Below, piece after piece: positions 4,477 to 27,657 of a DNA stretch of 32,066 nucleotides. The DNA comes from Actinomycetota bacterium (GTDB lineage: Bacteria; Actinomycetota; Aquicultoria; Aquicultorales; Aquicultoraceae). The notes below the pieces were generated by a model. It saw only the letters and a list, made by a program, of their open reading frames with translations, was not told where the DNA came from and did no database searches. The stretch spans positions 1 through 32,066 of the forward strand of contig JASEGT010000022.1 of assembly GCA_030018005.1 (NCBI GenBank), given 5' to 3'. How positions within the stretch are numbered: position 1 is the stretch's first letter; every line of letters begins with the position of its first letter. Both the position numbers and the translations under genes were made by a program.

Positions 4477-4496
4477 CCTCCGGGCTTTGCCGGAGG
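4477..4496 (+). promoter_or_regulatory. Leader hairpin just upstream of the fhs ribosome site
   Basis: A perfect 7-base-pair stem (CCTCCGG 4477-4483, CCGGAGG 4490-4496) has a 6-base loop. Its left arm contains CCTCC, which could instead pair with the fhs ribosome site AAGGAGG at 4535-4541. The two pairings are mutually exclusive, so the leader could in principle modulate translation of fhs. No T tract follows, so a terminator is unlikely. It resembles no riboswitch class that I recognise. Confidence 0.35.
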
Positions 4497-4545
4497 GTTG
4501 AAGGCTTAAGCTAAAAACGGTAGGCAGGAGCACCAAGGAGGTTGT

Positions 4546-6333: not shown

Positions 6334-6363
6334 GAGCGCAGGTTTCACCCTAAAGCAAATACG

Positions 6364-6396
6364 GCTTGGGCGGGCTTAACTAGAGCCCGCCCAAGC
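6364..6396 (+). terminator. Strong hairpin after fhs
   Basis: A perfect 13-base-pair stem (6364-6376 and 6384-6396) encloses a 7-base loop, 30 bases after the fhs stop. It is followed by AAAA rather than a T tract, so it is either a T-less terminator or an mRNA-processing or stability hairpin within the operon. Confidence 0.5.
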
Positions 6397-6432
6397 AAAA
6401 CTTGTAGCCGGGTCAAGGTTTTTATGTTAATA

Positions 6433-6450
6433 GCCGCGCTCAAGCGCGGC
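6433..6450 (+). promoter_or_regulatory. GC-rich hairpin in the acsV leader
   Basis: GCCGCGC (6433-6439) pairs perfectly with GCGCGGC (6444-6450) across a TCAA tetraloop. It lies about 66 bases before the acsV start, which itself has a poor ribosome site. It could stabilise the downstream message or take part in termination with the preceding hairpin. Confidence 0.35.
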
Positions 6451-6516
6451 CTGAGCTGTGACAGGAGCTTTGCGTAAGAGCTTGAATCCAGCAGAAGAAA
6501 GTCGGTAAGTTTCAAT

Positions 6517-8481
6517 ATGCCTAAGGTTTATTTCTACCCCGACAACAGAGGAGTCGAAGTAGAAGAAGGTGAAAACATCATCCGGGCGGCGATGCTGGCC
6601 GGGGTTCATATAAATGCATCTTGCGGTGGAACGGGCACCTGCGGAAAGTGCCGCGTCGTCGTCGACAAGGGTGAGGTAGTTAAGCATGCGACCGCGAAGC
6701 TCACACCCGAGCAAGTCGGGGAGGGCTACGTTTTGGCATGCACTACGCAGGTCAAAAGTGACATAGAAGTGCGCATACCGGTCGAGACCCAGATGGGCGA
6801 TAGCGGGGCGGCCCTCGAAAGAGAGCATCGCCCTGTCAGCCGTGGGTCGGTCTTGACTAGCAAGGATCTGAGCGAGCTTTTCGGCGATTTCGAATTAGAA
6901 CCCGCGACGAACAGGTACTACATCGAAATCGCGCCGCCGACACTCGAAGACAACCTCAGCGACCTCGAGCGACTCAAGCGTGAGCTGACGCGCACCCATA
7001 AGGTCGGTGAATTCACGGTCGACCTCGGTTGCTTACGGCAGATGGCGGTAAGGCTTCGCGAAGCCGACTGGAAGGTCACCGCGACCATCATGGAGGGTGC
7101 CGACGGCGAATGCCCGCGTTTAATCCGGCTCGATTCGGGCGACCGCGTGCAAACGCATTACGGTCTGGCGGTGGACATCGGCACCACCTCGGTCTATGTC
7201 GAGCTTGTCGACCTCAATACCAGGGAATCGCTTGGAAGGGTCTCTGAATATAACGCCCAGGTCAGCAGTGGCGAAGATATAATCTCGCGCATCGTCTACT
7301 CGCTCAAGAACGACGGGCTCGAGAGATTGCAGGCGCTGGTAGTCCAAACGATAAACGGTCTTATAGACAGGCTTCTCGATAAAACGGGCGTACAGCGAGA
7401 TGACATCGTCTACATGGTCGCCGCCGGCAACACGACGATGGTCCATCTCTTCTACGGAATCAACTCGCGCTATATCCGCGAGGAACCATATATTCCGACG
7501 GTCAACTTTACCCCCACGGTAAAAGCGTCCGATCTCGGCGTAAAGATCGCCGCCGGCGCCCGCGTCTATTGTATCCCCGGACGGGCGAGCTACGTAGGCG
7601 GCGACATCACCTCGGGCCTTTTGGCCTCGGGCGTGTATAAAACAGATAAACTCACCCTCTATATAGATGTCGGCACCAACGGCGAGATGGCACTCGGTAA
7701 CGCCGAGTGGTTGCTCTCTTGCGCGTGCTCGGCGGGCCCCGCTTTCGAGGGCGGTTCGGTAAAGCACGGCATGCGTGCGGTAAAAGGCGCGATAGAGACG
7801 GTCCGCATCAGCACCGAGACGCTGGAGCCGATGATTTTGACGATTGGCCAGACCAAACCCAAAGGCATCTGCGGCTCGGGTCTGATAGACACGCTGGCGG
7901 AGCTCTTCTTAACCGGCATCATCGACGAAAGAGGAAAGTTCAAGCTCGAGCTTGGGCACCCGAGAATCCGCGAAGGCGGAGGCCAGGGTGAGTATGTGCT
8001 CGTCTGGGCCGACGAGTCGGCAACGAAAGAGGATATCGTTATCACCGAGGCCGACATCGACAACCTCATCCGCACCAAAGGTGCGATATACGCAGGTATC
8101 ACGACGCTTTTGGATTCAATGCAGATGCCGGTAGAAGCGATCGAGCGGGTGCTTATCGCCGGTGGTTTCGGGCGTTACTTGGAACTCGACCAGGCGATTA
8201 CCATAGGCCTGCTCCCCGAATTCGCAGAAGAACAAGTGATGTATGTCGGTAATGGCTCGCTGATGGGCGCGCATCTGGTACTCCTGTCGCAGTCCGCGCG
8301 TCGTTCTGCAAAGGATATCGCGCAACGGATGACCTACCTGGAGTTGAGCACCCACCCGGGTTTCATGGATAATTACGTCTCGGCGTTGTTTCTACCCCAC
8401 ACCGATATCGGGGCGTTCCCGTTGGTGGCGGAGAGAGTCAAAGAGCGCAGCGGTGTCTATGGTCGTCGGGATGTTCGCTAA
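6517..8481 (+). CDS. acsV: Reductive activator of corrinoid iron-sulfur protein (RACo-type)
   Basis: This protein restores catalytically dead Co(II) corrinoid protein (AcsCD) to Co(I), using ATP and an electron from its own cluster. An N-terminal plant-type [2Fe-2S] domain has Cys36, Cys42, Cys45 and Cys75. A linker and middle domain lead to an ASKHA-type ATPase beginning at about residue 216 (AVDIGTTSVYVEL, Asp220), with AGPAFEG in the centre and IAGGFGRYLELD near residue 550. The 654-residue length fits the RACo family. The ATG at 6517 has no clear Shine-Dalgarno site, but the ferredoxin fold begins immediately (PKVYFYPDNRG), which supports this start. It lies between fhs and cooC, as expected for a maintenance gene of the methyl-transfer system. 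Similar activators serve other corrinoid methyltransferases, but the context favours AcsCD. Confidence 0.88.
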   Translation: MPKVYFYPDNRGVEVEEGENIIRAAMLAGVHINASCGGTGTCGKCRVVVDKGEVVKHATAKLTPEQVGEGYVLACTTQVKSDIEVRIPVETQMGDSGAALEREHRPVSRGSVLTSKDLSELFGDFELEPATNRYYIEIAPPTLEDNLSDLERLKRELTRTHKVGEFTVDLGCLRQMAVRLREADWKVTATIMEGADGECPRLIRLDSGDRVQTHYGLAVDIGTTSVYVELVDLNTRESLGRVSEYNAQVSSGEDIISRIVYSLKNDGLERLQALVVQTINGLIDRLLDKTGVQRDDIVYMVAAGNTTMVHLFYGINSRYIREEPYIPTVNFTPTVKASDLGVKIAAGARVYCIPGRASYVGGDITSGLLASGVYKTDKLTLYIDVGTNGEMALGNAEWLLSCACSAGPAFEGGSVKHGMRAVKGAIETVRISTETLEPMILTIGQTKPKGICGSGLIDTLAELFLTGIIDERGKFKLELGHPRIREGGGQGEYVLVWADESATKEDIVITEADIDNLIRTKGAIYAGITTLLDSMQMPVEAIERVLIAGGFGRYLELDQAITIGLLPEFAEEQVMYVGNGSLMGAHLVLLSQSARRSAKDIAQRMTYLELSTHPGFMDNYVSALFLPHTDIGAFPLVAERVKERSGVYGRRDVR

Positions 8482-8609
8482 GGGCTTGGTTGTTGATATT
8501 TGGATTTGGAGTTCATAATCTCAAGGTGAGACTGCGAAAATTGGCAGCCGATACCGGCGGTCGGAGTTCTAATATCGCCGTAAGTATAGCAAGTGGAAGG
8601 TGTTAAGTT

Positions 8610-9371
8610 TTGAGTTTTACAATCGCGGTCGCCGGCAAGGGCGGCACAGGAAAGACCACGCTGACGAGTATGATCATCGGTCATCTTCTGCGAACGGGGA
8701 AGACACCGGTATTTGCGGTCGACGCGGACGCTAATATAAATCTAAACGAGCAGCTCGGCGTAGAGGTCGATTCGACCATCGGCGGGATGCGCGAGGAGCT
8801 GAAGGTCAAAATCGGAGCCAACGAGGTTCCGGCCGGCATGACCAAAGACATGTACATGGAATACCTGCTCCAGGATACCGTGGTTGAAAGTACCGGGTTC
8901 GATCTGCTTGTCATGGGTCGCCCGGAGGGGCCCGGATGCTATTGCGCCGCTAACAATATGCTCAGGCGCTACATCGAGATACTCGCGAAGAACTACCCGT
9001 ATGTAGTCATCGATAACGAAGCCGGAATGGAGCACTTGAGCCGTCGCACGACACAAAAGATAGACCTGCTGCTTCTGGTTTCCGAGCCGAGCCCGATAGG
9101 GATTATGACTGCGGCCCGGATTCGCGATCTCGCTAAAGAGATGGAAGTCAGCGTCGCGAAAGTCGGTCTCATCATTAATAGAGTCAACGGGGAGCTACCC
9201 GTCAGCCTGGTGGAAGAGGCGGAGAGCCACAACTTGGAAGTGCTTGGAACGGTCCCGCTCGACGACAGTGTCTTCGAGCATGCGCTCAACCGTATCCCGG
9301 CGGTCAAAATCCCCGAGAGCTCGCCTGCGGTTCAGGCAATAGACAATATACTTGGCAAGTTGGACATCTAA
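8610..9371 (+). CDS. cooC: CooC-type nickel-insertion ATPase (first copy)
   Basis: This MinD/ParA-like P-loop ATPase helps load nickel into CO dehydrogenase or acetyl-CoA synthase. The deviant Walker A motif GKGGTGKTT lies at residues 9-17, followed by DADAN. The metal-binding CxC pair sits in PGCYCAANN (near residue 113), followed by VVIDNEAGMEHLSR. It has 253 residues, normal for CooC. The start is a TTG at 8610 with GGAAGG at 8595-8600; the conserved fold begins at the fourth residue, so no longer protein is expected. A second copy lies at 21057. This copy is upstream of folD, acsD and cooS. Which client each copy serves cannot be decided from sequence. Confidence 0.9.
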   Translation: MSFTIAVAGKGGTGKTTLTSMIIGHLLRTGKTPVFAVDADANINLNEQLGVEVDSTIGGMREELKVKIGANEVPAGMTKDMYMEYLLQDTVVESTGFDLLVMGRPEGPGCYCAANNMLRRYIEILAKNYPYVVIDNEAGMEHLSRRTTQKIDLLLLVSEPSPIGIMTAARIRDLAKEMEVSVAKVGLIINRVNGELPVSLVEEAESHNLEVLGTVPLDDSVFEHALNRIPAVKIPESSPAVQAIDNILGKLDI

Positions 9372-9387
9372 CCTAGGAGGAATGTGA

Positions 9388-10257
9388 ATGACGGCTAAAA
9401 TTATTGATGGTAAAGCGATTTCGGCCCAGATTCGGGCTGAGCTTGTCGATGAGGTCAAGAAGCTCCAAGCGGAAACCGGTGTTACCCCGGGTCTTGCGGT
9501 GGTTCTGGTAGGCGAGGACCCGGCTTCTAAAGTCTATGTCGGCCAAAAGGAGAAAGCTTGCGAAGAGCTCGGACTAGTCTCGAAAAAGTTTGTTCTTTCG
9601 GTAGACACATCTGAGCAAGAGCTGCTCGACCTCGTTGCGAAGTTAAACAACGACCCGGAAGTCGACGGCATTCTCGTTCAGTTGCCGCTGCCCAAGCAGA
9701 TTGACGAGAACAAGGTCATCGCGGCTATCGACCCCGACAAAGACGTCGACGGGTTCCATCCGGTAAACGTTGGTCGTTTAGTAATAGGAACCGAGGGCTT
9801 TAAGCCTTGTACCCCGTATGGTGTTATCCACCTGCTAAAGCGGTCTAACGTTCAGCTTGCGGGCGCCGAGGCTGTCGTCGTAGGCCGGAGCAACATCGTC
9901 GGCAAGCCGGTTGCGCTGATGCTTATACAGGAGAGCGCTACCGTCACCGTCTGTCACTCGAAGACCAAAGACCTCGGCGAAGTATGTCGCCGTGCGGATG
10001 TGCTCGTCGTCGCGACGGGGCGTCCGAACATGGTCACCGCGGATATGGTAAAAGACGGCGTAGTCGTAATCGACGTCGGTGTAAATCGCCTCGAGACCGG
10101 CAAACTCTGCGGCGACGTCGATTTTGAGGCGGTCTCGCAGAAGGCTTCCGCTATAACTCCGGTTCCGGGCGGCGTAGGCCCGATGACGATTGCCATGTTG
10201 ATGTACAACACGGTAAACTCAGCTAGACGCCGTGCCGGTGTTCCGGCTCTTGCATAG
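9388..10257 (+). CDS. folD: Bifunctional methylene-THF dehydrogenase / methenyl-THF cyclohydrolase
   Basis: FolD interconverts 10-formyl-, methenyl- and methylene-THF, covering two steps of the methyl branch; no separate cyclohydrolase (fchA) is present in the window. It has 289 residues, the standard length. Signature stretches include [15 protein letters not shown] (catalytic lysine), [10 protein letters not shown], the Rossmann segment [11 protein letters not shown] and [10 protein letters not shown] near the C terminus. The ATG at 9388 follows AGGAGG at 9375-9380. It is 16 bases downstream of cooC and likely co-transcribed. NAD versus NADP preference cannot be read reliably. Identification is secure. 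Confidence 0.96.
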
Positions 10258-10270
10258 CGCAGGTTAAAAC

Positions 10271-10343
10271 CGGGTGCGACCCCCGTGCTTCCGCGGCATG
10301 GGTTACGCACAACGTTCGTGTAATAGGCACCCGCGCTGGGTGC
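10271..10343 (+). promoter_or_regulatory. Possible attenuator-like leader of acsD
   Basis: Three elements in the folD-acsD gap could pair in alternative ways. A 7-base-pair stem with one G-U lies at 10282-10288/10296-10302. A perfect 6-base-pair stem lies at 10327-10332/10338-10343. The GCACCCG at 10327-10333 can instead pair with CGGGTGC at 10271-10277. The two uses of the GCACCC segment exclude each other, as in attenuators. No T tract follows. The function is inferred only from base pairing. Confidence 0.35.
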
Positions 10344-10390
10344 AGTACATATAGACTATAAGAGGAAGTTTCGAAGAAGGGGGAGAACAT

Positions 10391-11332
10391 ATGGCAATTC
10401 AGGCACCGACTGAATCATACACCGGTAAGATCAGGGAATTGATCTTGGGTTCCGATACCCAAGTGGCTGTTGGCGGCGAGAACACCCTGCCGTTTTACGG
10501 ATTTGAAGGCAACATTCCCAACGGGCCAAAAATCGCGATGGAGGTATTCGATACCGAGCCGGTTGGCTGGGCGGATGAGCTCCAAGCGGTTATCGGCGAT
10601 GTATGGGGAGACCCGGTTGCGTGGGCGAAGAAGTGCGAGAGCGAGTTCGGCGCGGACATGATATGCCTGCAGCTCGCCGGAACCGACCCGAATGGCGCCA
10701 ACAGGAGCCCTGAGGAAGCGGTCGCGACCGTCAACGCTGTTGTGGACGCGGTGAAGATTCCGGTAATCATCTATGGAAGCGGCAACGCAGACAAAGATAG
10801 TGAAGTGTTGAAAGCGGTAGCCGAGGCTACCCAAGGCAAGAATGTCGTCATCGGCCCGGCCGTTGAGGATAACTACAAATCGGTAGCGGCGGCGGCGATG
10901 GGCTTTAATGCGAAGGTAGCGGGCGAGACCCCGATCGACGTCAATATGGCCAAACAGCTCAACATTCTCATGAGCAACCTCGGTGTTCCCGTCGAGAGTA
11001 TTCTTGTCGATCCGTCGACCGGCGCTCTCGGGTACGGTCTCGAATACTGTTTCTCGGTCAACGAGCGCATCAAACTCGCCGCGCTGACCCAGAACGACAA
11101 CATGCTCCAGTCGCCGACCATCAGCAACCTCGGCAAAGAGGTATGGAAGGCTAAAGAGGCCAAAATCACCCAGGCAGAGGCGCCGCAGTGGGGCGACCAG
11201 AAGAAGCGCGGCATCATCTGGGAGACGCTGACCGCCATCTCGGTCATGATGGCCGGCGCAGACCTGCTCATCATGAGACATCCGGAGTCGGTCAAGCTTA
11301 TCAAGCAGACCGTTGCTGAGCTTATGGCTTAA
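10391..11332 (+). CDS. acsD: Corrinoid iron-sulfur protein small (delta) subunit
   Basis: AcsD is the TIM-barrel small subunit of the corrinoid iron-sulfur protein. With AcsC it carries the methyl group from methyl-THF to the A cluster of acetyl-CoA synthase. The protein has 313 residues, close to known bacterial AcsD (about 310-325). Recognisable stretches are GGENTLPFYGFEG near residue 28, LQLAGTDPNG near residue 95, IYGSGNADKD, and the C-terminal IMRHPESVKLIK. The ATG at 10391 follows a purine-rich GGGGGAG site. A bulged hairpin lies in the gap before cooS. In several acetogens acsC and acsD are adjacent; here cooS and acsB separate them. Confidence 0.94.
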   Translation: MAIQAPTESYTGKIRELILGSDTQVAVGGENTLPFYGFEGNIPNGPKIAMEVFDTEPVGWADELQAVIGDVWGDPVAWAKKCESEFGADMICLQLAGTDPNGANRSPEEAVATVNAVVDAVKIPVIIYGSGNADKDSEVLKAVAEATQGKNVVIGPAVEDNYKSVAAAAMGFNAKVAGETPIDVNMAKQLNILMSNLGVPVESILVDPSTGALGYGLEYCFSVNERIKLAALTQNDNMLQSPTISNLGKEVWKAKEAKITQAEAPQWGDQKKRGIIWETLTAISVMMAGADLLIMRHPESVKLIKQTVAELMA

Positions 11333-11358
11333 GATAGTAGGCATCATTTAGGAAACAC

Positions 11359-11381
11359 GCGGCCGACCGAAGTCGGACCGC
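11359..11381 (+). promoter_or_regulatory. Bulged hairpin between acsD and cooS
   Basis: A 9-base-pair stem with one bulged A (11359-11367 and 11372-11381) is capped by a CGAA tetraloop. It lies about 30 bases before the cooS start, without a T tract. It may stabilise the cooS message or set relative expression. Confidence 0.35.
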
Positions 11382-11412
11382 AAGATCACTAGATCGAAAG
11401 TAAGGAGAGACT

Positions 11413-13353
11413 ATGTCAGACAAGATCAGAAGCGTGGATCCAGCGACAGTCGAGATGCTGGAGAAAATCGGCGACATGTCGACCATGTTTAGCCGAGCTG
11501 AGGAGATGAAGGTTTGCACCTTCGGCTCCGAAGGCAGCTGCTGCCGGGTTTGTGCCATGGGCCCATGCCGCCTCGGCGGGAAGAGCAAAAACGGCAGAGA
11601 AAAAACAGGAGTCTGCGGCGCGACGATGCACACCGTTGCCGCTCGTAACCTCGCGCGCTCCGTTGCCGCCGGTGCGTCCGCACACGCGGACCATGGTCGC
11701 GCGGTAGCTATGACGTTCCTCGCCGCCGCAAAAGGTGAGGCGCCGGGCTATGGAATCAAAGACGAAACAAAATTGATGGTGGTAGCAGGCCATTTCGGTA
11801 TCGAGACCGAAGGCAAGACCGTCCAGGAGGTCGCTATCGCTCTCGGCGAGGCCGCCCTTGCGGAGTACGGCAAGCAAACCGGTACCCCGATGATGTATGT
11901 CAAGCGTGCGACCGAGAAGCGCAAGAAAATATGGGAAGAGCTCCAAATATTCCCGCGCGGGTTCGACCGCGAGGTCGTACAATTGATGCACCAGACCCAT
12001 GCCGGTACCGACCAGGATGCAGAGCATATCCTGATGTCATCGGTACGCTGTGCCTTAGCCGACGGCTGGGGCGGTTCCATGATGGCAACCGACCTTCAAG
12101 ACATCATGTTCGGCACCCCGAAGCCGCTTCGCGCAGAGGCGAACCTCGGTATTTTGAAAGAAAAAGAAGTAAATATCATCCTCCACGGTCACGAGCCGCT
12201 TCTCTCAGAGAAGATCGTCGATAGCGCGACCAGCCCGGAGATGATCGAATATGCTAAGAGCAAAGGTGCCGAGGGAATCACGCTCGGTGGTATCTGCTGT
12301 ACCGGAAACGAAGTCCTGATGCGCCGCGGTGTCGGCCCGGCAGGTAACGTCCTCCAGCAGGAGCTCGCTATCGCGACCGGCGTCGTCGATGCGATGATAG
12401 TCGATGTGCAGTGTGTCTTCCAGGGTCTCGTCGAGGTCGCCGAGAAGTATCATACGAAAGTAATCACGACCAACGAGCGCGCGATGATGACCGGCGCCGA
12501 GCACATCCAGTTCGATGAGCACAATGCGATAGAGACTGCCAAGACCATCGTTAAAGCGGCTGTCGATAACTTCGCAAACCGCAAGGGTGATGTCTTCATC
12601 CCCGACCACAAGAAACCGATGGTCGCGGGCTTTAGCCACGAGTACATCAAGTACATGCTCGGCGGCAAGTTCCGCGGCTCGTTCCGTCCGCTAAACGACG
12701 CCATCATCAGCGGCCGTATCCAGGGTGCGGTGGCCATCGTCGGGTGTAACAACCCGCGTACCACGCACGACGATTCGCACAGGTTCCTCGTCGAGGAGTT
12801 TCTAAAACGAGACATTCTCGTCGTCGTGACCGGCTGTGCCGCTCAAGGCGCCGCAAAGGCCGGCTACCTGACACCGGAGACGATGGAGATGGCCGGACCG
12901 GGCCTAAAAGAGATCTGCGAGACCGTCGGTATCCCGCCGGTACTCCACCTCGGCTCCTGCGTCGACAACAGCCGCATACTTACCGTCCTCAACGAGGTCG
13001 TTACTGAAGGCGGCCTTGGCGAAGACGTCAGCGACCTGCCGGCTGTCGGCCTGGCCCCAGAGTGGTATTCGGAGAAAGCGCTCACCATCGCACTCTACTG
13101 TGTTGCGAGCGGCGCGGATGTCATCTTCGGCGGCGTCGGAGCTCCGTATCGCGCGAGCAGCGAGATGATGAGACTTACGACCGAGGGCTTTAAAGAGAAG
13201 TTCGGCGCAACGTTTGAATTCTACCCGACAAAAGAGGAGATTCTCGAAGCGACGATCGCAAAGATTCAAGCGAAGAGAAAAGCTCTAGGTATTGATACCC
13301 AGAAAGAAAGAGTCCTCTTCGATATGGAGATGAGGAGGGAACTGAATGTCTAA
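11413..13353 (+). CDS. cooS: Anaerobic carbon monoxide dehydrogenase catalytic subunit
   Basis: This Ni-Fe CO dehydrogenase (also called acsA) reduces CO2 to CO for acetyl-CoA synthesis, or oxidises CO. It has 646 residues. The N-terminal cysteines fit the D and B clusters: Cys35, Cys43, Cys44, Cys47, Cys52 and Cys68. HADHGR (residues 91-96) follows. C-cluster motifs are visible as HGHEPLLSEK, GICCTGNE, VQCVFQGL, GCNNPRT, VTGCAAQGA and HLGSCVDNSR. The ATG at 11413 has a GGAG site about five bases upstream. The stop overlaps the start of acsB by eight bases, so the bifunctional CODH/ACS partners are translationally coupled. Assignment is secure. Confidence 0.97.
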   Translation: MSDKIRSVDPATVEMLEKIGDMSTMFSRAEEMKVCTFGSEGSCCRVCAMGPCRLGGKSKNGREKTGVCGATMHTVAARNLARSVAAGASAHADHGRAVAMTFLAAAKGEAPGYGIKDETKLMVVAGHFGIETEGKTVQEVAIALGEAALAEYGKQTGTPMMYVKRATEKRKKIWEELQIFPRGFDREVVQLMHQTHAGTDQDAEHILMSSVRCALADGWGGSMMATDLQDIMFGTPKPLRAEANLGILKEKEVNIILHGHEPLLSEKIVDSATSPEMIEYAKSKGAEGITLGGICCTGNEVLMRRGVGPAGNVLQQELAIATGVVDAMIVDVQCVFQGLVEVAEKYHTKVITTNERAMMTGAEHIQFDEHNAIETAKTIVKAAVDNFANRKGDVFIPDHKKPMVAGFSHEYIKYMLGGKFRGSFRPLNDAIISGRIQGAVAIVGCNNPRTTHDDSHRFLVEEFLKRDILVVVTGCAAQGAAKAGYLTPETMEMAGPGLKEICETVGIPPVLHLGSCVDNSRILTVLNEVVTEGGLGEDVSDLPAVGLAPEWYSEKALTIALYCVASGADVIFGGVGAPYRASSEMMRLTTEGFKEKFGATFEFYPTKEEILEATIAKIQAKRKALGIDTQKERVLFDMEMRRELNV

Positions 13354-15553
13354 GATTATTGCAACCTCAGCTATCAGGGGCGCGCATGAAACCGTTAATC
13401 TCGCGGAAGCGAAGATTAAAGAGGCCATCGATTCTAAAGGCGCGAATCATGAAGTAGCCTTCCCCAACACCGGCTACTTCCTCCCGGTCATCTACGCGTT
13501 GACCGGCGAGAAAATCGAGAAGGTCTCCGATATGGAGAAGGTTCTCAAGATCGCGAAGGACCTCCTTCCGGAGGAGCCGAGCGAGAGCCTATGGCTCCCG
13601 TACCTCGGCGGTACTCTCGACGCAGGTATCGCAACGCTCTTCGGCGCAGAGATGATAATGGCGCTGCGCTACATCGGCATCGGTGACGCACCGGTGACCG
13701 ACCTCTACGTCGGTGCCGCTGATGACGTCATCATGCGCGCCCGCGGCGTCGAGTTCGTAGATGGTTCCGCTCCGGGTTTTGCCGCGATAGTCGGCGCCGC
13801 CCCCAGCGTTGAGCAGGCCGTCGCTATGGCGCGCGACCTGCAGCAGAAGAACCTCTACACCTTTATCGCCGGTTCGACCGATGGCGTGTGCTTCGCCGAC
13901 CAGCTGGTAGAGGGCGGCGTAGAAATCGGTTGGGACACGCGTCTCGTACCGTTCGACCCGCATGTCTACGGGCATATCTACTCGATCGGTTTTGCCACCA
14001 GGGCCGCTATGGCCTTCGGCGGTGTCCAGCCGGGCGATTATGAGAGAACCCTTCGCTACAACAAGAACCGCGTCTTCGCGTTCGTCGTCGCACTTGGCGA
14101 AGTCGACCCGGTCAAATATGCGGCAGCCGCCGGCGCCATCAACTACGGCTTCCCGGCTATCGCCGACACCGATATCCCGGAAATACTTCCGACCGGTGTC
14201 TGCACCTACGAGCATGTCGTCGCAAACGTGCCGTTTGAGGACATCATCCAGAAATCGATCGAGGTTCGCGGCTTGAAGATTAAGATCGACAAGGTGCCGA
14301 TCCCGGTTGCCTATGGTGCGGCCTTCGAGGGCGAGCGTATCCGTAAGGATGACCTCTACTGCGAGTTCGGCGGCTCCAAGAGCGAAGCGTTCGAGCTTCT
14401 GCTTATGAAAGATATGGAAGAAGTCGAGGACAACAAGATCGAGCTTGTCGGTCCCGACCTCAAAGATATGGAAGAGAAGAAGGCTTACCCGATGGCAATC
14501 GTCGTCGAGGTCGCCGGCCGCAAGATGCAAAAAGACTTCGAGCCGATTCTCGAGCGCCAGATACACCACCTCATCAACGGTGCGGAGGGCGTCATGCACG
14601 TCTCCCAGCGTGATGTCATGTGGATTCGCGTCGGCAAAAAAGCCGTCGAGAAAGGCTTCGGCCTCGCCGACATCGGCCGCATCCTGCACACCAAGATACT
14701 CAACGAGTTCCCGGCAATCGTCGACAAGGTCCAGGTGACTATCATCACCGAGGCCGACAAAGTTCACGAGTTGCTCGAGGTAGCCCGCAAGGAGTATCAC
14801 GACCGCGATGAGCGCGTCTCCGGCTTGACCGACGAGAACGTCGATACCTTCTACAGCTGCACGCTCTGCCAGTCGTTCGCCCCGACCCACCTCTGCATTA
14901 TCACACCGCAGCGCTTGGGTCTGTGCGGTGCCTACAACTGGCTCGACGGCAAGGCGTCCTTTGAGATCAACCCGACCGGTCCGAATCAGCCTGTCCTCAA
15001 GGGCGAGACCCTAAACGAGGAAAAAGGCGAGTGGGCGGGGATTAACGAATATCTCTCGCGGGCGTCGAACGGCGCTATCCAGAGGCTCTATGCCTACTCC
15101 ATGATGGAGAACCCGATGACCTCCTGCGGTTGCTTCGAGGCCATCATCGCCCATCTGCCGCTCGTCGACGAGGATACCGGAGATGTCAGAAGCGGCTTCA
15201 TGGTCGTTAACCGCGACTATGCGGGCCAGACACCATTCGGTATGACCTTCTCGACCATGGCGGGTCTCGTCGGCGGCGGTCTCCAGAACCCGGGTATGGC
15301 CGGCGTTGGAAAGTACTTCCTCGGCAGCCCGAAATTCCTATCGGCCGACGGCGGTTTCGCCCGCGTTGTTTGGATGCCGAAAGAGCTTAAAGAGCAGCTC
15401 GCCGGCATTCTCGAAGGGCAAGCGGAGCGTACCGGAGACCCCGACTTTCTCAATAAGATAGCGGATGAGACTAATGCGCTCACCATGGAAGAGGTCGGGG
15501 CGTTTGCCAAGTCCAAGAGTCATCCGGCATTGTCGATGGACATGCTCGGCTAA
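13346..15553 (+). CDS. acsB: Acetyl-CoA synthase (CODH/ACS beta subunit, bacterial type)
   Basis: AcsB condenses CO, a methyl group and CoA into acetyl-CoA at its Ni-Ni-[4Fe-4S] A cluster. It has 735 residues, close to the Moorella enzyme. The A-cluster ligands are all visible: Cys505, Cys508, Cys517 and Cys527, plus the Cys594-Gly-Cys596 pair that binds the distal nickel. This register is one residue off the Moorella numbering as I remember it. The N-terminal domain that contacts CooS is present, so it is the full bacterial form rather than the truncated archaeal one. The ATG at 13346 overlaps the cooS end and follows a strong AGGAGG site. A canonical terminator follows the stop. Confidence 0.97.
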   Translation: MSKIIATSAIRGAHETVNLAEAKIKEAIDSKGANHEVAFPNTGYFLPVIYALTGEKIEKVSDMEKVLKIAKDLLPEEPSESLWLPYLGGTLDAGIATLFGAEMIMALRYIGIGDAPVTDLYVGAADDVIMRARGVEFVDGSAPGFAAIVGAAPSVEQAVAMARDLQQKNLYTFIAGSTDGVCFADQLVEGGVEIGWDTRLVPFDPHVYGHIYSIGFATRAAMAFGGVQPGDYERTLRYNKNRVFAFVVALGEVDPVKYAAAAGAINYGFPAIADTDIPEILPTGVCTYEHVVANVPFEDIIQKSIEVRGLKIKIDKVPIPVAYGAAFEGERIRKDDLYCEFGGSKSEAFELLLMKDMEEVEDNKIELVGPDLKDMEEKKAYPMAIVVEVAGRKMQKDFEPILERQIHHLINGAEGVMHVSQRDVMWIRVGKKAVEKGFGLADIGRILHTKILNEFPAIVDKVQVTIITEADKVHELLEVARKEYHDRDERVSGLTDENVDTFYSCTLCQSFAPTHLCIITPQRLGLCGAYNWLDGKASFEINPTGPNQPVLKGETLNEEKGEWAGINEYLSRASNGAIQRLYAYSMMENPMTSCGCFEAIIAHLPLVDEDTGDVRSGFMVVNRDYAGQTPFGMTFSTMAGLVGGGLQNPGMAGVGKYFLGSPKFLSADGGFARVVWMPKELKEQLAGILEGQAERTGDPDFLNKIADETNALTMEEVGAFAKSKSHPALSMDMLG

Positions 15554-15572
15554 TATGAACCGTGCGCGGGCG

Positions 15573-15611
15573 GCGGGGCGCTTAACTGCGCCCCGCTCCG
15601 CGTGATTTTTT
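15573..15611 (+). terminator. Intrinsic terminator between acsB and acsC
   Basis: A perfect 9-base-pair GC stem (15573-15581 and 15588-15596) with a TTAACT loop is extended by an outer CGCGG/CCGCG pairing and followed by TTTTTT at 15606-15611. This is the most canonical terminator inside the cluster and should limit read-through from cooS-acsB into acsC. Confidence 0.8.
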
Positions 15612-15666
15612 CTAGCGATGGCCGTATGGCCGAATGAACGATTAACCTTTTTGGAGGTGAGTGAAT

Positions 15667-17019
15667 GTGGCTTTAACCGGAATGGATATTTTTAAACAGC
15701 TCCCAAAGACTAACTGCGGCGACTGTGGGATTCCCACCTGCCTGGCGTTCGCGATGAAGCTTGCCGCCGGCGGCGCTTCTCTCGAACAGTGCCCGCATGT
15801 TAGTGAGGAAGCAAAAGCACTGCTCTCCGAGGCGTCTGCGCCTCCGATGCGCGGTGTGACGATAGGTGAGGGTGAATACGCGCTCAAGATTGGTGAGGAA
15901 CTCGTAATGCACAGGCACGAGAAGACCTTCTTCAACCCGCCTGGCCTGGCACTCCTTGTTGAGGACACGGAAGACGGCGCGGCCGTCGACGCGAAACTTG
16001 CCGCGCTCAAGGAGGCTACCTATGAGCGTGTCGGCCAGACTATGCGCGCCGACCTCGTCGCGGTCAAGAATTCTTCGGGTGACGCGAACACCTTTAGTGA
16101 TATGGTGAAGAAAGTCATGGCAGGCATCCCATATCCGCTCGTTTTGATGGCGGATGCGGCGGCAATCGACGCGGCGATGTCGGCCGCCGGTCCCGCAAAA
16201 CCATTGCTCTACGCGGCGACCGCCGACAACCTCGACGCGATGGCGGAGCTTGCCAAGAAATACGGCGCCCCGCTCGCCGTCAAACCGGCCTCCCTTAATG
16301 AGCTGGCCGAGCTTACGACGAAACTCAATGGCATGGGCCTTAAAGACCTCGTCATCGATATGGGTACGCGCACTCTCAAAGAGACCTTCCAGAACCTGGT
16401 CTTTACGCGGCGCCTGGCTCTCAAGAAGAAACAGCGCCCGTTCGGGTATCCGACGATAACGTTCCCCGCCGAGGAGACAGCGGACGATATGATGGAGACC
16501 GTCCATGCGGCCGTCTATACTATCAAGTACGGCGGTATCATGGTGCTCAAAGACCTCAGTCCCGAGAAGGCCTATGCCCTCTACGTCCTGAGGCAGAACA
16601 TCTATACCGACCCGCAGCGTCCGATGCAGGTGGATCAGGGCGTCTACCCAATCAACAACCCGACGGAAGACTCGCCGTTCCTCATCACGACCAACTTCTC
16701 GCTGACGTACTTTATCGTCTCGAGCGAGGTCGAGGGCAGCAAGATGCCGGCATGGCTCGGTATCGTCGACGTCGACGGCCTCTCTACGCTTACCGCGTGG
16801 GCGGCCGGCAAATTTGTACCGGAGAGAATCGCCGCCTTCGTCAACAAGAGCGACATTCTCGATAAGATAAAGCATAAAACCGTGGTCATCCCAGGCTATG
16901 TCGCTCAGATAAGCGGCGAACTCGAGGAAGAACTCCAGGGTTGGAAGATAGTCGTCGGCCCGCGCGAAGCCGCCGATATCCCGGCCTTCCTGAAGAGTTT
17001 TCAACCGGTAACAGCTTAG
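15667..17019 (+). CDS. acsC: Corrinoid iron-sulfur protein large (gamma) subunit
   Basis: AcsC is the large subunit of the corrinoid iron-sulfur protein. It carries the N-terminal [4Fe-4S] cluster that feeds electrons to cobalt, and the C-terminal cobalamin-binding domain. With the GTG at 15667 the cluster cysteines are 17, 20, 25 and 42 (NCGDCGIPTC...QC). An in-frame GTG at 15661 is possible, but it leaves only three bases after the GGAGG site at 15653-15657. The 15667 start gives nine bases and is preferred, yielding 450 residues. The central TIM-barrel and C-terminal domain (PGYVAQISGELEEEL) are present. It is separated from acsB by a strong terminator, so it probably has its own promoter or depends on read-through. 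Confidence 0.95.
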   Translation: MALTGMDIFKQLPKTNCGDCGIPTCLAFAMKLAAGGASLEQCPHVSEEAKALLSEASAPPMRGVTIGEGEYALKIGEELVMHRHEKTFFNPPGLALLVEDTEDGAAVDAKLAALKEATYERVGQTMRADLVAVKNSSGDANTFSDMVKKVMAGIPYPLVLMADAAAIDAAMSAAGPAKPLLYAATADNLDAMAELAKKYGAPLAVKPASLNELAELTTKLNGMGLKDLVIDMGTRTLKETFQNLVFTRRLALKKKQRPFGYPTITFPAEETADDMMETVHAAVYTIKYGGIMVLKDLSPEKAYALYVLRQNIYTDPQRPMQVDQGVYPINNPTEDSPFLITTNFSLTYFIVSSEVEGSKMPAWLGIVDVDGLSTLTAWAAGKFVPERIAAFVNKSDILDKIKHKTVVIPGYVAQISGELEEELQGWKIVVGPREAADIPAFLKSFQPVTA

Positions 17020-17040
17020 CAAGCATGTGAAGGACGAGCC

Positions 17041-17080
17041 ATTAGTGGGTTAGGGATAAGCCGATCACTAACCCACTAAT
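17041..17080 (+). terminator. Hairpin with 13-base-pair stem after acsC
   Basis: Perfect 13-base arms (17041-17053 and 17068-17080) surround a 14-base loop, 21 bases after the acsC stop. No T tract follows. It may be a T-less terminator or the first element of the structured region extending to 17331. Confidence 0.5.
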
Positions 17081-17109
17081 ACCGCTTTGGTTGCGGCGTG
17101 ATAATTGAG

Positions 17110-17331
17110 AATTGCAAATTATTGGGGAGTCGAGCGATTTGCAATTGACAATAGCTTTTGTTGCGTTACAGGGCTCGTTAGTATTTTGAACCACAAATCA
17201 GCGCTTAGGATTGGGAGCGATATGGATGGGCGACGGAAGCCGTGACGCGTCGCTGCGTCACGGATAATCTGTCAGCATAAGGGAGATATGGCCCGGACAG
17301 AAGAATCTCAAACCGGTTGCGGACAACCGGT
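17110..17331 (+). ncRNA. Candidate structured RNA or leader upstream of the fused flavoprotein
   Basis: The gap before 17385 contains a series of perfect stems: 10-base arms at 17110-17119/17136-17145 region (AATTGCAAAT and its complement), a 9-base-pair stem at 17240-17248/17255-17263, a 5-base-pair stem closing 17269-17273/17296-17300, and an 8-base-pair stem at 17312-17319/17324-17331 with a CGGA tetraloop. The last three are stacked within 92 bases, as in a riboswitch or small RNA, and end 53 bases before the flavoprotein start. I do not recognise any known riboswitch class. No gene is evident in this stretch. Confidence 0.4.
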
Positions 17332-17384
17332 CATAGGGTCGCTGATAGCTATTTTAAGTAGTAGGTAAAGGAAAGGTTGCTACT

Positions 17385-19481
17385 ATGGCGAGTGAAGCTA
17401 CGAACGTAAATTCTCAGAGCGAAGCCTTTGAGACATGGATAGAAGACCAGCCGCTCAAGCCGCCGTGCGCCGCCGCGTGCCCGGTCAATGCGGATATCCA
17501 GTCGTTTGTGAGCCTTGTAGCCCAGGGCAGGTTCAAGGAGTCGCTGGAAGCGGTGCGGGAGCGCTGCACGTTGCCGGGCTCACTTGGGCGCATCTGCCAC
17601 CACCCGTGCGAGGGCGAGTGCCGCCGCAACGACGTGGAGGGCGCGGTAAATATCAGGGCCATCAAACGTTTTGCCTCCGACGTCTGCGCGGATGAGCCGG
17701 TCTCGGACGCGGTTCCGAAGACGAGAGGCAAGAAGGTCGCCATCATCGGCGGCGGCGTCGCCGGTCTGACCGCCGCCTACGACCTGGCCAAGGACGGCTT
17801 CGATGTCACCATCTACGAGCAGAACGACGCCTGCGGCGGCGCGATATATACCGGCGTTCCCAAGTACCGCCTGCCGAAAGACGTTGTCGCGCAAGATGTC
17901 GCGGCTATCGAATCGCTCGGGGTGACGATTAAGACGAACACCGCAATCGGCAGGGATGTCGCCTTCGACGACCTCGCCAAAGACTATGACGCGGTCCTTA
18001 TAGCCATCGGCCTCACGGTGAGCAGGGGTATTCCGATACCCGGCCATGACGCCGACGGCGTCCTCTTGGCGCTGCCCGTCTTGAAAGAGGCGAACTTTAA
18101 CGATAACGTCGTCATCGGCAAGCGGGTCGTCGTCATCGGCGGCGGCAATGTCGCGTTTGACGTGGCGCGCTCGGCGAAGCGTATGGGCGCCGAGGAGGTC
18201 AGTCTCTGCTGCCTCGAGTGCGAGGACGAGATACCGGCGTTCAGCTGGGAACTGGTCGAGGCGCGCGAAGAGGGCATAATTATCAACCCCTCCTGGGGTC
18301 CGAAAGAGATAAAGGTCGAGGACGGCAAGGTAGCGGGCATCAGCTTTAAGCGCTGCGCACGTGTCTTCGACGAAAAAGGTATGTTCAACCCGGCCTACGA
18401 CGAGAACGAGATTCTTGGAATCGAGGCCGATAATGTGGTCTTCGCTATCGGCCAGGGCGCCGATATGAACGGCTTTACCGGGACCTCACTCGAGGTCGAT
18501 GAGCGCGGCCGCATCAAGTGGGATGCGCTCACCCTCAAGACCAACCTCCCGAATGTCTTCGCGTCCGGTGAGGTTGTAACCGGACCCGGTTCCGCGGTCG
18601 CGGCGATGCGAAACGCGCACCACGCGGCCACCGCCATCGAGCGTTTCTTGACCACTGGTACGGCCGGCGCGGTCGTCGTGCCGGAGCCGCTCGCTATCGG
18701 CCGACTTCCGCAGCACACCATCGACGCGATAGTGCGCAAAGAGAAGAACCATGTGCCCATCGTCGACCCGGCGGAGCGTGTCAAAAGCTTTATAGAGGCC
18801 GAGGGTGGCTTCGATATCGATATGGCCATTTACGAGGCCGGGCGCTGCATGAACTGCGGTCGCGGCGCCGAGATAATCGCCGAGAAATGCGCAGCGTGTC
18901 TTACCTGTGTGCGGGTCTGCCCGTTCGGCGCACCGTACATCTCCGAGGCGCGCGTAGCTGATTTTAATTGGGATAGCTGCCAGTCCTGCGGTATTTGCGC
19001 GGCGGAGTGCCCGGGCATGGCGATACACGTAGGTTTCAATGATGATACACTTATAAATGAGCGGATAGACGCCGCCACGAGCGGTATTACCGCCTTCGGG
19101 TGCCAGCTCGGCAAACCGGAGATATATAATCCGCTCTCCAAGGCGACATCGAGCCCACCGGGCCTTAACTTCGTCAAGCTGATGTGTGCGAGCCGCCTCG
19201 ACATGCAACACATCCTGCGCGCGATTGAGAACGGTGTCGACGGCGTAGCCGTCATGGCTTGCCCCGACGACAAATGCCGCTATCGCAAGGACGTCAACTG
19301 GGCCGAGGTTCGCGCCAATCGCGCCAAGAGGCTCCTCGAAGAGATAGGCATCGGCGGCGACCGTGTCGAGTTCATGGGCTCGTTCGCGACCCCGGAAGAG
19401 GCGCAGCAGGCCATAGGTGCGTTCAAGGCCAAGCTCGCCGAGCTGGGGCCGAATCCTCTCAATAAAGTGATGGTGAAATAA
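17385..19481 (+). CDS. Fused flavoprotein: GltD-like domain, ferredoxin domain, MvhD-like domain
   Basis: This 698-residue electron-transfer protein is probably the redox partner of the MetV-MetF methylene-THF reductase. The N-terminal GltD/NfnB-like part has Fe-S cysteines 28, 32, 71, 75 and 79, FAD motif GGGVAG at 122-127 and a second Rossmann motif GGGNVA near 251-256 for NAD(P). A two-cluster ferredoxin follows (Cys502/505/508/512 and Cys532/535/538/542). Residues about 560-698 resemble MvhD, the hydrogenase/heterodisulfide reductase linker subunit (GCQLGK, MCASRLD, ACPDDKCRYRK). The start ATG at 17385 lacks a strong ribosome site (AAAGG). metV begins one base after the stop. In Moorella, MetVF associates with separate HdrCBA and MvhD; here one polypeptide may replace them. 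Flavin-based electron bifurcation is possible but unproven. Confidence 0.82.
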   Translation: MASEATNVNSQSEAFETWIEDQPLKPPCAAACPVNADIQSFVSLVAQGRFKESLEAVRERCTLPGSLGRICHHPCEGECRRNDVEGAVNIRAIKRFASDVCADEPVSDAVPKTRGKKVAIIGGGVAGLTAAYDLAKDGFDVTIYEQNDACGGAIYTGVPKYRLPKDVVAQDVAAIESLGVTIKTNTAIGRDVAFDDLAKDYDAVLIAIGLTVSRGIPIPGHDADGVLLALPVLKEANFNDNVVIGKRVVVIGGGNVAFDVARSAKRMGAEEVSLCCLECEDEIPAFSWELVEAREEGIIINPSWGPKEIKVEDGKVAGISFKRCARVFDEKGMFNPAYDENEILGIEADNVVFAIGQGADMNGFTGTSLEVDERGRIKWDALTLKTNLPNVFASGEVVTGPGSAVAAMRNAHHAATAIERFLTTGTAGAVVVPEPLAIGRLPQHTIDAIVRKEKNHVPIVDPAERVKSFIEAEGGFDIDMAIYEAGRCMNCGRGAEIIAEKCAACLTCVRVCPFGAPYISEARVADFNWDSCQSCGICAAECPGMAIHVGFNDDTLINERIDAATSGITAFGCQLGKPEIYNPLSKATSSPPGLNFVKLMCASRLDMQHILRAIENGVDGVAVMACPDDKCRYRKDVNWAEVRANRAKRLLEEIGIGGDRVEFMGSFATPEEAQQAIGAFKAKLAELGPNPLNKVMVK

Positions 19482-19482
19482 G

Positions 19483-20133
19483 ATGATTGTTGCAGAGCCA
19501 AAGAGCCTGGATGAGATAAAAGCAATGGTCGACGGATACGACCGCGTTCTTATGGTAGGTTGCGGAACCTGTGTGGAGGTCTGCCTTACCGGCGGCGAGC
19601 GCTCCGTCAACCTAACCGCGACCGCCCTGCGCCTCGCGCGCAAGGTCGACGGGCGCGATATCGAGGTCGGCGAGCAGACCGTCATCCGCCAGTGCGATTT
19701 CGAATACCTCGATGAGGTCAAAGATACCGATAAGTACCAAGCCATCGTTTCCCTGGCGTGCGGTGTAGGGATCCAGGGCATTGCCCGCAGGTTCCCCAAT
19801 ACACCGGTCTTTCCCGGGGTCAATACCACCTTTATGGGATTTAACGAAGAATACGGGTACTATACCGAGATGTGTAAAGGCTGCGGCGAGTGCATTCTGC
19901 ACCTGACCGGCGGCGTTTGCCCGGTCGCCCGCTGCGCGAAGAGCCTGCTTAACGGGCCGTGCGGCGGCACCAACAACGGCAAGTGTGAGATAGGCAGCGA
20001 TAAGGACTGCGGTTGGGTCCTTATCTATAATAAGATGGAGCAGCTCGGCACGCTCGACAAGTTCAAGGAGATAAACGCTCCGAAGAGCTACGGCAAAGCC
20101 GGGAATATCCGCTCGATGGACTTGAGGAAGTAG
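19483..20133 (+). CDS. metV: MetV-type zinc/iron-sulfur partner of methylene-THF reductase
   Basis: MetV is the small MTHFR_C-domain protein that pairs with MetF in acetogens and passes electrons to its flavin. It has 216 residues. The N-terminal segment holds GCGTCVEVCLTGGE (from residue 26). The C-terminal half is cysteine-rich: MCKGCGECILHLTGGVCPV, RCAKSLLNGPCGG, NNGKCEIG and KDCGW, consistent with two Fe-S clusters or Fe-S plus zinc. The ATG follows the upstream stop by one base, with GGTGA as a modest ribosome site. metF starts 12 bases after the stop, giving a tight flavoprotein-metV-metF unit. Identification from the family pattern and context is firm. Confidence 0.9.
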   Translation: MIVAEPKSLDEIKAMVDGYDRVLMVGCGTCVEVCLTGGERSVNLTATALRLARKVDGRDIEVGEQTVIRQCDFEYLDEVKDTDKYQAIVSLACGVGIQGIARRFPNTPVFPGVNTTFMGFNEEYGYYTEMCKGCGECILHLTGGVCPVARCAKSLLNGPCGGTNNGKCEIGSDKDCGWVLIYNKMEQLGTLDKFKEINAPKSYGKAGNIRSMDLRK

Positions 20134-20145
20134 GAGGGTAGCGCA

Positions 20146-21018
20146 GTGGGATTCAAGGAAGAGATTCAACGTGGGAATTTTGTGGTCACCGCTGAAGTCG
20201 GCCCTCCGAAAGGCACCGACATCAGCGAGATGGTTCATCATATTAAAGGACTAAAAGGCAAGGTTACGGCGCTCAACGTCACCGACAACCAGAGCGCGGT
20301 CATGCGTATCTGCACCCTGGCGGTGGCTAAAGAGATAATGGACATCGGTATCGAGCCGATTTATCAGATGACCTGCCGCGACCGCAACCGCCTCGGGCTC
20401 CAATCCGACTTGCTCGGTGCGGCCATCATGGGGATTAAGAACGTCCTCGCGCTCACCGGCGATCATCCGGTCCTCGGCGACCACAAGGATGCCAAAGCGG
20501 TCTTCGATATCGAGTCGGTCCAGCTTCTCGAGGTCATTAACGGCCTCAACGAAGGGCGCGACATGGCCGGACTCGAGCTGCAAGGCGCGACCGATTTGTT
20601 CGCGGGCGCGATTGTGACGCCCGAGTCGATTCCGCTCGAGCCGCAGCTCGCGAAGTTTGAGAAGAAGGTCAACGCCGGCGCAAAGTTCTTTCAGACGCAG
20701 GCCATATACGATATGCCCAAGTTCATGACCTTCATGGAGCGGGCCAAAGAACTCGATGTCCCGATTCTCGCGGGCATCTTGCTCTTGAAATCGGCGGGCA
20801 TGGCCAAGTATCTCAATAAGTTCGTAGCCGGTGTTTCGGTGCCGCAAGAGCTTATAGACGAACTCGCGCCGCTTAAGGGCGAGGATGCGCTCAAGAAGGG
20901 CATTGAGATCGCGGGCAACCAAATCGCCCAGTTAAAAGAGGTTTGCGCAGGTGTCCACGTCATGGCCATCGGCGCCGAAGACCGGGTGCCGGATATTCTG
21001 GCGGCAGCCGGTCTATAA
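20146..21018 (+). CDS. metF: Methylenetetrahydrofolate reductase
   Basis: MetF is a TIM-barrel flavoprotein that reduces 5,10-methylene-THF to 5-methyl-THF, the last reduction of the methyl branch. It has 290 residues. Visible family stretches are VVTAEVGPPKG with the catalytic glutamate (residue 17), ALNVTDNQSA, QMTCRDRNRL, NVLALTGDHP and FFQTQAIYD. The start is a GTG at 20146 with GGAGGG at 20133-20138, seven bases upstream. It lacks an NAD(P)-dependent extension, as expected for MetF that relies on MetV and an external electron carrier. It is directly coupled to metV and followed closely by the second cooC. Confidence 0.95.
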   Translation: MGFKEEIQRGNFVVTAEVGPPKGTDISEMVHHIKGLKGKVTALNVTDNQSAVMRICTLAVAKEIMDIGIEPIYQMTCRDRNRLGLQSDLLGAAIMGIKNVLALTGDHPVLGDHKDAKAVFDIESVQLLEVINGLNEGRDMAGLELQGATDLFAGAIVTPESIPLEPQLAKFEKKVNAGAKFFQTQAIYDMPKFMTFMERAKELDVPILAGILLLKSAGMAKYLNKFVAGVSVPQELIDELAPLKGEDALKKGIEIAGNQIAQLKEVCAGVHVMAIGAEDRVPDILAAAGL

Positions 21019-22839: not shown

Positions 22840-22892
22840 CAGGCACTATACGCGACGAATGAGTAATCGACGAATAGAAGGACAGACCGGAG

Positions 22893-22915
22893 AGGGCGGA
22901 CTACGCGTCCGCCCT
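22893..22915 (+). terminator. Hairpin after acsE, probable T-less terminator
   Basis: A perfect 9-base-pair stem (22893-22901 and 22907-22915) with a 5-base loop lies 53 bases after the acsE stop and 118 bases before fdhA. No T tract follows. It resembles other GC-rich hairpins in the cluster. Confidence 0.5.
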
Positions 22916-23033
22916 TCCGACACGTCTTCTGCGAATAAGAAAAACACCGGAGCACATCGCTGAAGCCCGAGTTTTTCTTGTTTCCATAAGGTTTTGGCAC
23001 GTCCATATCTGATCGCAAAAGGCAGGAGGATTT

Positions 23034-27137: not shown

Positions 27138-27180
27138 AGCGCGCCGGGCGGGTATGCGGTCGGGCAGAGAGGAGCATAAG

Positions 27181-27210
27181 AAAACGGGGGCTGTACCGAC
27201 CCCCGTTTTT
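27181..27210. terminator. Bidirectional intrinsic terminator
   Basis: A 10-base-pair stem (AAAACGGGGG 27181-27190 with its complement 27200-27209) has a 9-base loop and a T5 run at 27206-27210. The upstream A run provides the T tract on the opposite strand. It separates convergent fdhA (plus) and the hemerythrin gene (minus). Confidence 0.85.
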
Positions 27211-27234
27211 GTGCGTTTTAGCTTATCTTAGAAG

Positions 27235-27657
27235 TTAGGCTACTTTGCCGCTCGGTACGCAAGCGATAAAACCAGCCATTTCCTTATCCGTCTTGGTGAA
27301 ATGCTCGGTCAACCAGGGGACCATGTAGTTTTGAATGCTTTCATTGAGCGTGCCGTTGTCGCCGGTCTCGTCAAAACGTTGTACTACGTTAGCCACCCTT
27401 CCGGCGAATTCATCGTGCTGTTTTTTGTGGGACTCATAGGCCGGATAACTTATGTCGCGCATTGTCTTTTCTTCGCACTGGAAGTGCTCGACGACGAAAT
27501 CCGCAAGCAGGCTCGCCGCTTCGGATACGACCTCGCGATCCTGGCTCTTCTCCGCTATCGAGTAGAGACCGCTGAGCATCCGGATGAGCGCCTTATGTTG
27601 GCAATCGACTCCACACACACCGGTTTTGAAATCATCGCTCCACTGGACTACTGACAT
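27235..27657 (-). CDS. Bacteriohemerythrin
   Basis: This is a small cytoplasmic non-haem di-iron protein that binds O2. It has 140 residues, a standard single-domain length. The di-iron ligands are visible in the family spacing: His21, His58, Glu62, His77, His81, His119 and Asp124. The ATG at 27657 (minus strand) has AGGAGG seven bases upstream (complement of 27665-27670). It is the only clear minus-strand gene in the window and stands alone behind a bidirectional terminator. A role in oxygen sensing, scavenging or storage that protects oxygen-labile enzymes is plausible but inferred. C-terminal residues after position 130 are variable. Confidence 0.93.
   Translation of the reverse strand: MSVVQWSDDFKTGVCGVDCQHKALIRMLSGLYSIAEKSQDREVVSEAASLLADFVVEHFQCEEKTMRDISYPAYESHKKQHDEFAGRVANVVQRFDETGDNGTLNESIQNYMVPWLTEHFTKTDKEMAGFIACVPSGKVA

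Follow-up and report, generated by a model that had tools for sequence, protein, structure and literature searches.

Genus-conserved hairpins and a lineage-specific folded segment in the acsC/flavoprotein gap of a Wood-Ljungdahl gene cluster from an uncultured actinobacterium

Introduction

Gaps between the genes of a metabolic cluster may carry RNA structures that belong to the gene upstream, to the gene downstream or to neither. Which of these applies is the question raised by the gap at 17020-17384 (365 nt) of the window, that is, of the whole 32,066-nt stretch of DNA from an uncultured actinobacterium that was analyzed here. This gap contains a series of strong hairpins, which a preliminary description of the same DNA had interpreted as a possible riboswitch-like leader or small RNA controlling the operon downstream. 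The upstream gene, acsC (15661..17019, + strand), encodes the gamma subunit of the CODH/ACS corrinoid protein (NF003195, E 1.2e-179; PF03599, PF04060). The downstream gene (17385..19481, + strand) encodes a fused Fe-S flavoprotein composed of an NAD(P)-binding protein and a FlpD/MvhD domain (PF07992, PF02662, and NF009410 with a match below the curated cut-off of that model). It is the first gene of the methylenetetrahydrofolate reductase (MTHFR) module and is followed by the gene for a protein with an MTHFR C-terminal domain and then by that for MTHFR. The surroundings form a Wood-Ljungdahl cluster that includes fhs, acsV, folD, acsD, CODH and acsB.

Three named relatives belong to Candidatus Aquicultor, and their flavoproteins are 97% (Aquicultor sp. 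and A. primus) and 71% (A. secundus) identical to that of the window. The genes flanking the gap keep their strand and order in the relatives whose gap was readable. The acsC gene of Ca. Aquicultor primus matches the window in two separate pieces; between them (L044, 2270-2314) it is 55 nt shorter, owing to either a deletion or an assembly fault.

A densely hairpinned gap composed of two parts

The four perfect inverted repeats listed in the preliminary description are present at the coordinates given there. Hairpin 1 has perfect arms of 13 bp (17041-17053/17068-17080), hairpin 2 of 10 bp (17110-17119/17137-17146), stem 3 of 9 bp (17240-17248/17255-17263) and stem 4 of 8 bp (17312-17319/17324-17331), the end of the latter lying 53 nt before the ATG of the flavoprotein gene at 17385. 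If repeats are counted whose arms reach 8 bp or more and whose loops span 3-20 nt, the gap has four, compared with a mean of 0.068 in dinucleotide-shuffled sequences, none of 1000 of which reached this number. The view that the gap holds more structure than one terminator is upheld. The further remark that the last three stems stack compactly is correct if it refers to stems 3 and 4 together with a shorter one, which lie within a single closed fold (17197-17346), and incorrect if hairpin 2 is counted among them, which groups with hairpin 1 by conservation. Searching the gap against 60 genomes (the genome of origin and 59 relatives), followed by alignment, divides it into two separate things, namely hairpins 1 and 2, which are conserved in the genus, and stems 3 and 4, which are part of a segment found in the window only.

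Strong hairpins are also found at other junctions of the cluster. Among the 14 other gaps of at least 40 nt in the window, as delimited by our choice of genes and with loops of up to 39 nt admitted, six contain an arm of 9-13 bp (3878-4545, 6334-6516, 15554-15660, 22840-23033, 27138-27300 and 30967-32066). When ten gaps were compared in fixed windows of 150 nt, three had a more stable + strand window (z -5.9, -4.6 and -4.6) than the best one of the acsC/flavoprotein gap (z -3.5 on the + strand and -4.9 on the - strand); 40 control windows from 4600-21000, mostly coding, gave mean z values of -0.24 (+) and -0.43 (-). The hairpins described here are a modest and mostly ordinary finding.

Two of these other gaps deserve a separate mention. 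The gap between fhs and acsV (6334-6516), with z values down to -5.9 and a perfect hairpin of 13 bp, is 84-95% identical in three congeners (in G002 and G003 from 6364 on) and has no Rfam match at the gathering threshold. The gap at 22840-23033, located after a gene for a pterin-binding (AcsE-like) protein, contains a conserved hairpin, AGGGCGGAC/GTCCGCCCT, and another one that terminates in TTTTTCTT; both occur in the window and in the congeners G003 and G002, and neither has a match in G001, a genome that is 77% complete.

Conservation of hairpins 1 and 2 in the genus and the family

Hairpin 1 (17040..17081, + strand) consists in the window of 13 perfect base pairs, one internal mismatch, three inner base pairs and a 6-nt loop, reaches 14 perfect base pairs in G001 and G002, and is followed by a 12-nt tail, ACCGCTTTGGTT, with no U-tract. 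Hairpin 2 (17104..17152, + strand) has 10 plus 4 bp and a 17-nt loop in the window; in G003 this loop differs in sequence and length, changing the spacing by one base. The hairpin 2 tail is AGCTTTTGTTGC in the window and TTAATATTCTT-like in the congeners. The region with both hairpins (17020-17170) folds with a z of -4.10, and the block 17021-17152 matches all three congeners (G001-G003) at 86-90% identity. Outside the genus matches to the gap are weak, the best one (E 0.002) being to the ribosome-binding-site segment in G008. Matches to hairpin 2 in G014, G029 and G025 are nearly identical to each other and appear to be coding by eye, and were taken as chance.

Variation within the block is concentrated outside the stems. 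In the four-genome alignment (columns 17026-17152, one gapped column dropped), 3 of 62 paired positions vary versus 22 of 64 unpaired ones (Fisher p 3e-5). Of the four-fold sites of acsC, 66 out of 216 vary, which differs from the stems (Fisher p 9e-6) and not from the unpaired positions (p 0.65), indicating that the stems are constrained and that the rest of the block is drifting. The corresponding number for the flavoprotein gene, obtained mostly from three genomes, is 83 of 347. The 3/62 count adds an outer pair seen in the relatives, so that its absence from the window is scored against the hypothesis; with stems defined on the window alone, 2 of 54 paired and 23 of 72 unpaired positions vary. 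Two of the 34 paired positions of hairpin 1 vary, one of which keeps the pair as G-U, and the other (17081) disrupts the outermost pair, in the window alone. In hairpin 2 one paired position out of 28 varies and the pair is kept (A-U/G-U), so two of the three stem changes preserve pairing through G-U on the + strand. The preliminary description had proposed an alignment of the gap in relatives as a test for covarying pairs. The relatives bear out the conservation of hairpins 1 and 2 in the four genomes of the genus, but no pair of either hairpin was altered on both sides in them, and the evidence is consequently one of constraint on the stem sequence and not a proof of an RNA helix by covariation.

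The position of hairpin 1 is equally regular. It starts at nt 20-22 past the acsC stop codon in all four genus genomes, and for this reason fits better as a 3' element of acsC than as part of a leader; in the window, more than 300 nt separate it from the next start codon. We give a probability of roughly one in two (about 0.48) to the reading in which hairpins 1 and 2 are intercistronic mRNA elements that protect or mark the 3' border of acsC and the segment behind them is a separate insertion. Its basis is the position of the hairpins, their single copy, the concentration of conservation in the pairs and the lack of a U-tract behind hairpin 1.

A wider comparison covered ten of the 11 genomes of the family, G006 being left out as its contig stops short of acsC; the gene starts in the relatives are our own reading, and the end of the gap is uncertain in one of them. 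The gap of 365 nt in the window corresponds to 190, 192 and 190 nt in G001-G003. In six of the ten genomes, namely the four of the genus, G005 (nt 15) and G008 (nt 13), a hairpin whose arms are 8 bp or longer starts at nt 13-22 past the acsC stop codon, those of G005 and G008 having different sequences, and G007 has a hairpin at nt 74. The gaps of G004 (24 nt), G009 (31 nt) and G010 (73 nt) contain no hairpin with arms of at least 6 bp, and those of G004 and G009, which belong to two other genera, have no room for hairpins 1 and 2, so these hairpins are dispensable in the family. Since acsC still precedes the flavoprotein gene in these three genomes, a leader RNA is not needed for the downstream genes either. 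The gap sequences thus suggest that the recurrent feature of the family is a predicted hairpin close behind acsC, hairpins 1 and 2 themselves being carried by four closely related genomes only.

Termination, operator and repeat functions

A role of the hairpins mainly in partial transcription termination (attenuation), lowering expression of the MTHFR module relative to the acs genes, is possible although rather unlikely. They share with intrinsic terminators a strong stem past a stop codon at a gene junction, and the neighboring acsB/acsC gap contains a GC-rich hairpin resembling an intrinsic terminator (15565..15611, + strand), followed by TGATTTTTT (T6), of which all 14 pairs are unchanged in the four genus genomes and which is a candidate internal attenuator. 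The hairpin that G008 has at the place of hairpin 1 also precedes a TTTT, and in the window a TTTT run (AGCTTTTG) located three bases past the stem of hairpin 2 leaves some room for termination. However, unlike the acsB/acsC hairpin with its U-tract, hairpin 1 has no T-run in its tail, and the short TTTT behind hairpin 2 is not kept in the three congeners, in which the tail differs and there are at most two T in a row beside the stem. A terminator scan of the + strand at 16900-17500 was empty, although it allowed loops of 3-8 nt only and was therefore blind to hairpin 2.

The dyads might instead function as DNA, as operators bound by a dimeric transcription factor, a promoter of the flavoprotein operon lying downstream, which we consider improbable. 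Conservation of both arms as sequence, with unpaired sites drifting at the rate of the acsC four-fold sites, would agree with such a role, as would the TTGACA that the window and G001 have on the right side of hairpin 2. This motif is nevertheless lost in G002 and G003, and a simple scan of 16900-17500 found no sigma-70-like promoter. Also the geometry argues against operators, given that 14 and 17 nt separate the perfect arms and that hairpin 2 has its spacing shifted by one base in G003, and so does the fact that two of the three stem changes are tolerated by RNA pairing.

That the hairpins arose through the arrival in this gap of a dispersed palindromic repeat of the REP/MITE kind, the insert being another such element, is very improbable. 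The palindromic make-up of the hairpins and the occurrence of a lineage-specific insert bounded by AATAGCT/AGCTATT are compatible with it, but hairpin 2 is present in single copy in each of the four genus genomes. Hairpin 1 also occurs once in each of them, besides isolated matches to a single arm with one mismatch (one in G000 and two in G002), which are no more numerous than those of a reversed control pattern (0-6 per strand and genome). The insert occurs once in its own genome and, in the other 35 genomes of the class, has no match except for one of 22 nt at E 0.06. Hairpins 1 and 2 are hence not dispersed repeats, whereas a match to a repeat family with many copies is what the preliminary description had named as refuting its proposal, and for the genus this origin appears to be largely refuted.

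The folded segment in front of the MTHFR module

The segment with stems 3 and 4 (17150..17353, + strand) is absent in G001-G003 and has AATAGCT (17150-17156) and AGCTATT (17347-17353) at its ends. From the conserved block to the ribosome-binding site there are about 30 nt in the congeners and about 200 nt in the window, and the net excess of the window gap over the three congeners is 173-175 nt. Within the segment, 17197..17346 (+ strand) is predicted to form a compact multibranched fold with a base helix (17197-17203/17340-17346), an arm (17211-17311) that holds a stem at 17232-17237/17268-17273 and stem 3 (17240..17263, + strand, 9 bp), and then stem 4 (17312..17331, + strand, 8 bp with a CGGA loop), both numbered stems being absent in the three congeners. 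The tails of stem 3, stem 4 and the base helix are ATAATCTGTCAG, CATAGGGTCGCT and AGCTATTTTAAG, respectively. The + strand of 17196-17347 has a minimum free energy of -63.9 kcal/mol, with none of 200 shuffles as stable and a z of -5.06 that overstates the case because the boundaries were picked after seeing the fold; the - strand gives a z of -4.01. For the longer 17150-17384 the z values are -3.13 (+) and -4.05 (-), and the strand preference of the segment is thus inconsistent, with the lower z on the + strand in the shorter region and on the - strand in the longer one.

Searches for relatives of this segment gave little. In agreement with the statement of the preliminary description that the gap could not be matched to a known class, no match to Rfam at gathering threshold was obtained anywhere in the window, nor any to the gap at E<=10; on 17150-17384, CRISPR-DR29 (E 1.6) and mir-4887 (E 9.6) appear at E<=10 as chance matches. 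A covariance model built from the single sequence and run with stricter filters found no convincing homologue among 395 other genomes of the phylum. In these and its own genome (396 in all) it returned its own match and two weak ones, at E 0.0086 and E 0.055 per genome, which is about chance level for so many genomes; the match with E 0.0086 is palindromic, can be aligned on either strand and lies across long open frames. The segment has no match in phages, one of about 33 bp at the level of chance (E 0.6) in plasmids, and none in viral contigs searched with two exact probes (21 and 20 bases). As to a gene remnant, all six frames of 17150-17360 contain a stop codon, + frame 0 only one.

The segment is missing from the three congeners and from every other family genome with a readable gap, which points to a gain in the lineage of the window. 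The gene trees disagree in this respect, the acsC tree placing the window with G003 (support 0.71) and the flavoprotein tree placing it outside G003 and G001 (0.96). On these comparisons, segment 17150-17353 is best read as a separate, lineage-specific insertion with a strong fold, without which the congeners live. As to its origin, this one sequence may represent an insertion, a fault of the assembly or an RNA element. There is a remote chance that it works as a structured RNA of a class not yet described, either an aptamer acting in cis or a small RNA, that has newly come to lie ahead of the MTHFR module. Such an RNA could compete with hairpin 2, the outer arm of which is overlapped by 3 nt by the AATAGCT that would close it.

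It is hardly credible that the whole series forms a riboswitch-like leader of the flavoprotein/MTHFR operon since, although the sequence ahead of this one-carbon operon is structured and the insert resembles riboswitches and other structured 5' leaders of Rfam in being one closed multibranched domain ahead of a start codon, it differs from them in having neither an Rfam match nor relatives in the phylum sample, stems 3 and 4 are missing in all three congeners, and the gaps of G004 and G009 are so short (only 24 nt in G004) that no conserved leader of the MTHFR operon can be recognized in the series. The single leader suggested by the preliminary description is accordingly not supported, and neither is a riboswitch or small RNA at hairpins 1 and 2.

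Between the segment and the flavoprotein gene lies a ribosome-binding-site segment (17357..17387, + strand; AGTAGT...GGAAAGGTTGCTACTATG) with DNA matches in G001, G002, G003, G005 and G008. Unlike the rest of the gap it is conserved across three genera, and an exact 18-mer of it occurs in 5 of the 11 family genomes (own included). In this segment AGUAG...CUACU can pair so as to place the Shine-Dalgarno bases in a loop, and the 3' arm is conserved. A hairpin shared across genera is nevertheless not claimed, since only 4 of 10 sequences fold better than at least 95% of their shuffles.

Discussion

Coming back to hairpins 1 and 2 as intercistronic elements at the 3' border of acsC, their mode of action would involve several steps. 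The transcript of the Wood-Ljungdahl operon would run through the acsC/flavoprotein gap and the operon mRNA would be cut within it, after which hairpins 1 and 2 would block 3'-to-5' exonucleases, or else mark the processing site. As a result, the acs part of the mRNA would be stabilized relative to the MTHFR part. The set of RNases of Actinomycetota differs from that of E. coli, and the effect of the hairpins in this phylum is assumed.

The closest described mechanism appears to be that of the protective intra-operon hairpins of Dar and Sorek (2018; PMC5927463): stable hairpins within operons that lack a uridine tract protect the upstream gene. Among the E. coli gene pairs with a stabilized upstream gene, a 3' end just behind a stable hairpin was reported in 26 of 34, and 17 of these 26 fall within the coding sequence of the downstream gene, the intergenic malE-malF case being recounted in the same text. 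With the hairpins so described, malE-malF included, those of the acsC/flavoprotein gap share that stable hairpins occupy a junction of a gene cluster, that hairpin 1 lacks a uridine tract and that the stems are conserved more than their surroundings. They differ from them in being predicted from sequence only, in forming two hairpins in series, in occurring in another phylum and in the short TTTT behind hairpin 2 of the window, and they differ from the majority (17/26) in lying in a gap. In the excerpted part of a Term-seq study of Sporomusa (PMC12456013), the Wood-Ljungdahl genes constitute one transcription-unit cluster and cobalamin riboswitches are the most abundant class; hairpins at the acsC/flavoprotein junction are not mentioned in that part. 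The open-licence literature on Aquicultor, on the regulation of the Wood-Ljungdahl pathway and on intercistronic stem-loops yielded no report on this gap.

In a broader sense, this locus serves as a caution that a densely hairpinned gap in a single genome can be the sum of a conserved element and an unrelated insertion. If the reading preferred here is true, the same Wood-Ljungdahl cluster would contain a terminator-like hairpin after acsB and protective hairpins after acsC, and RNA hairpins at gene junctions would tune the ratio of acetyl-CoA synthase to the enzymes of the methyl branch in these uncultured actinobacteria.
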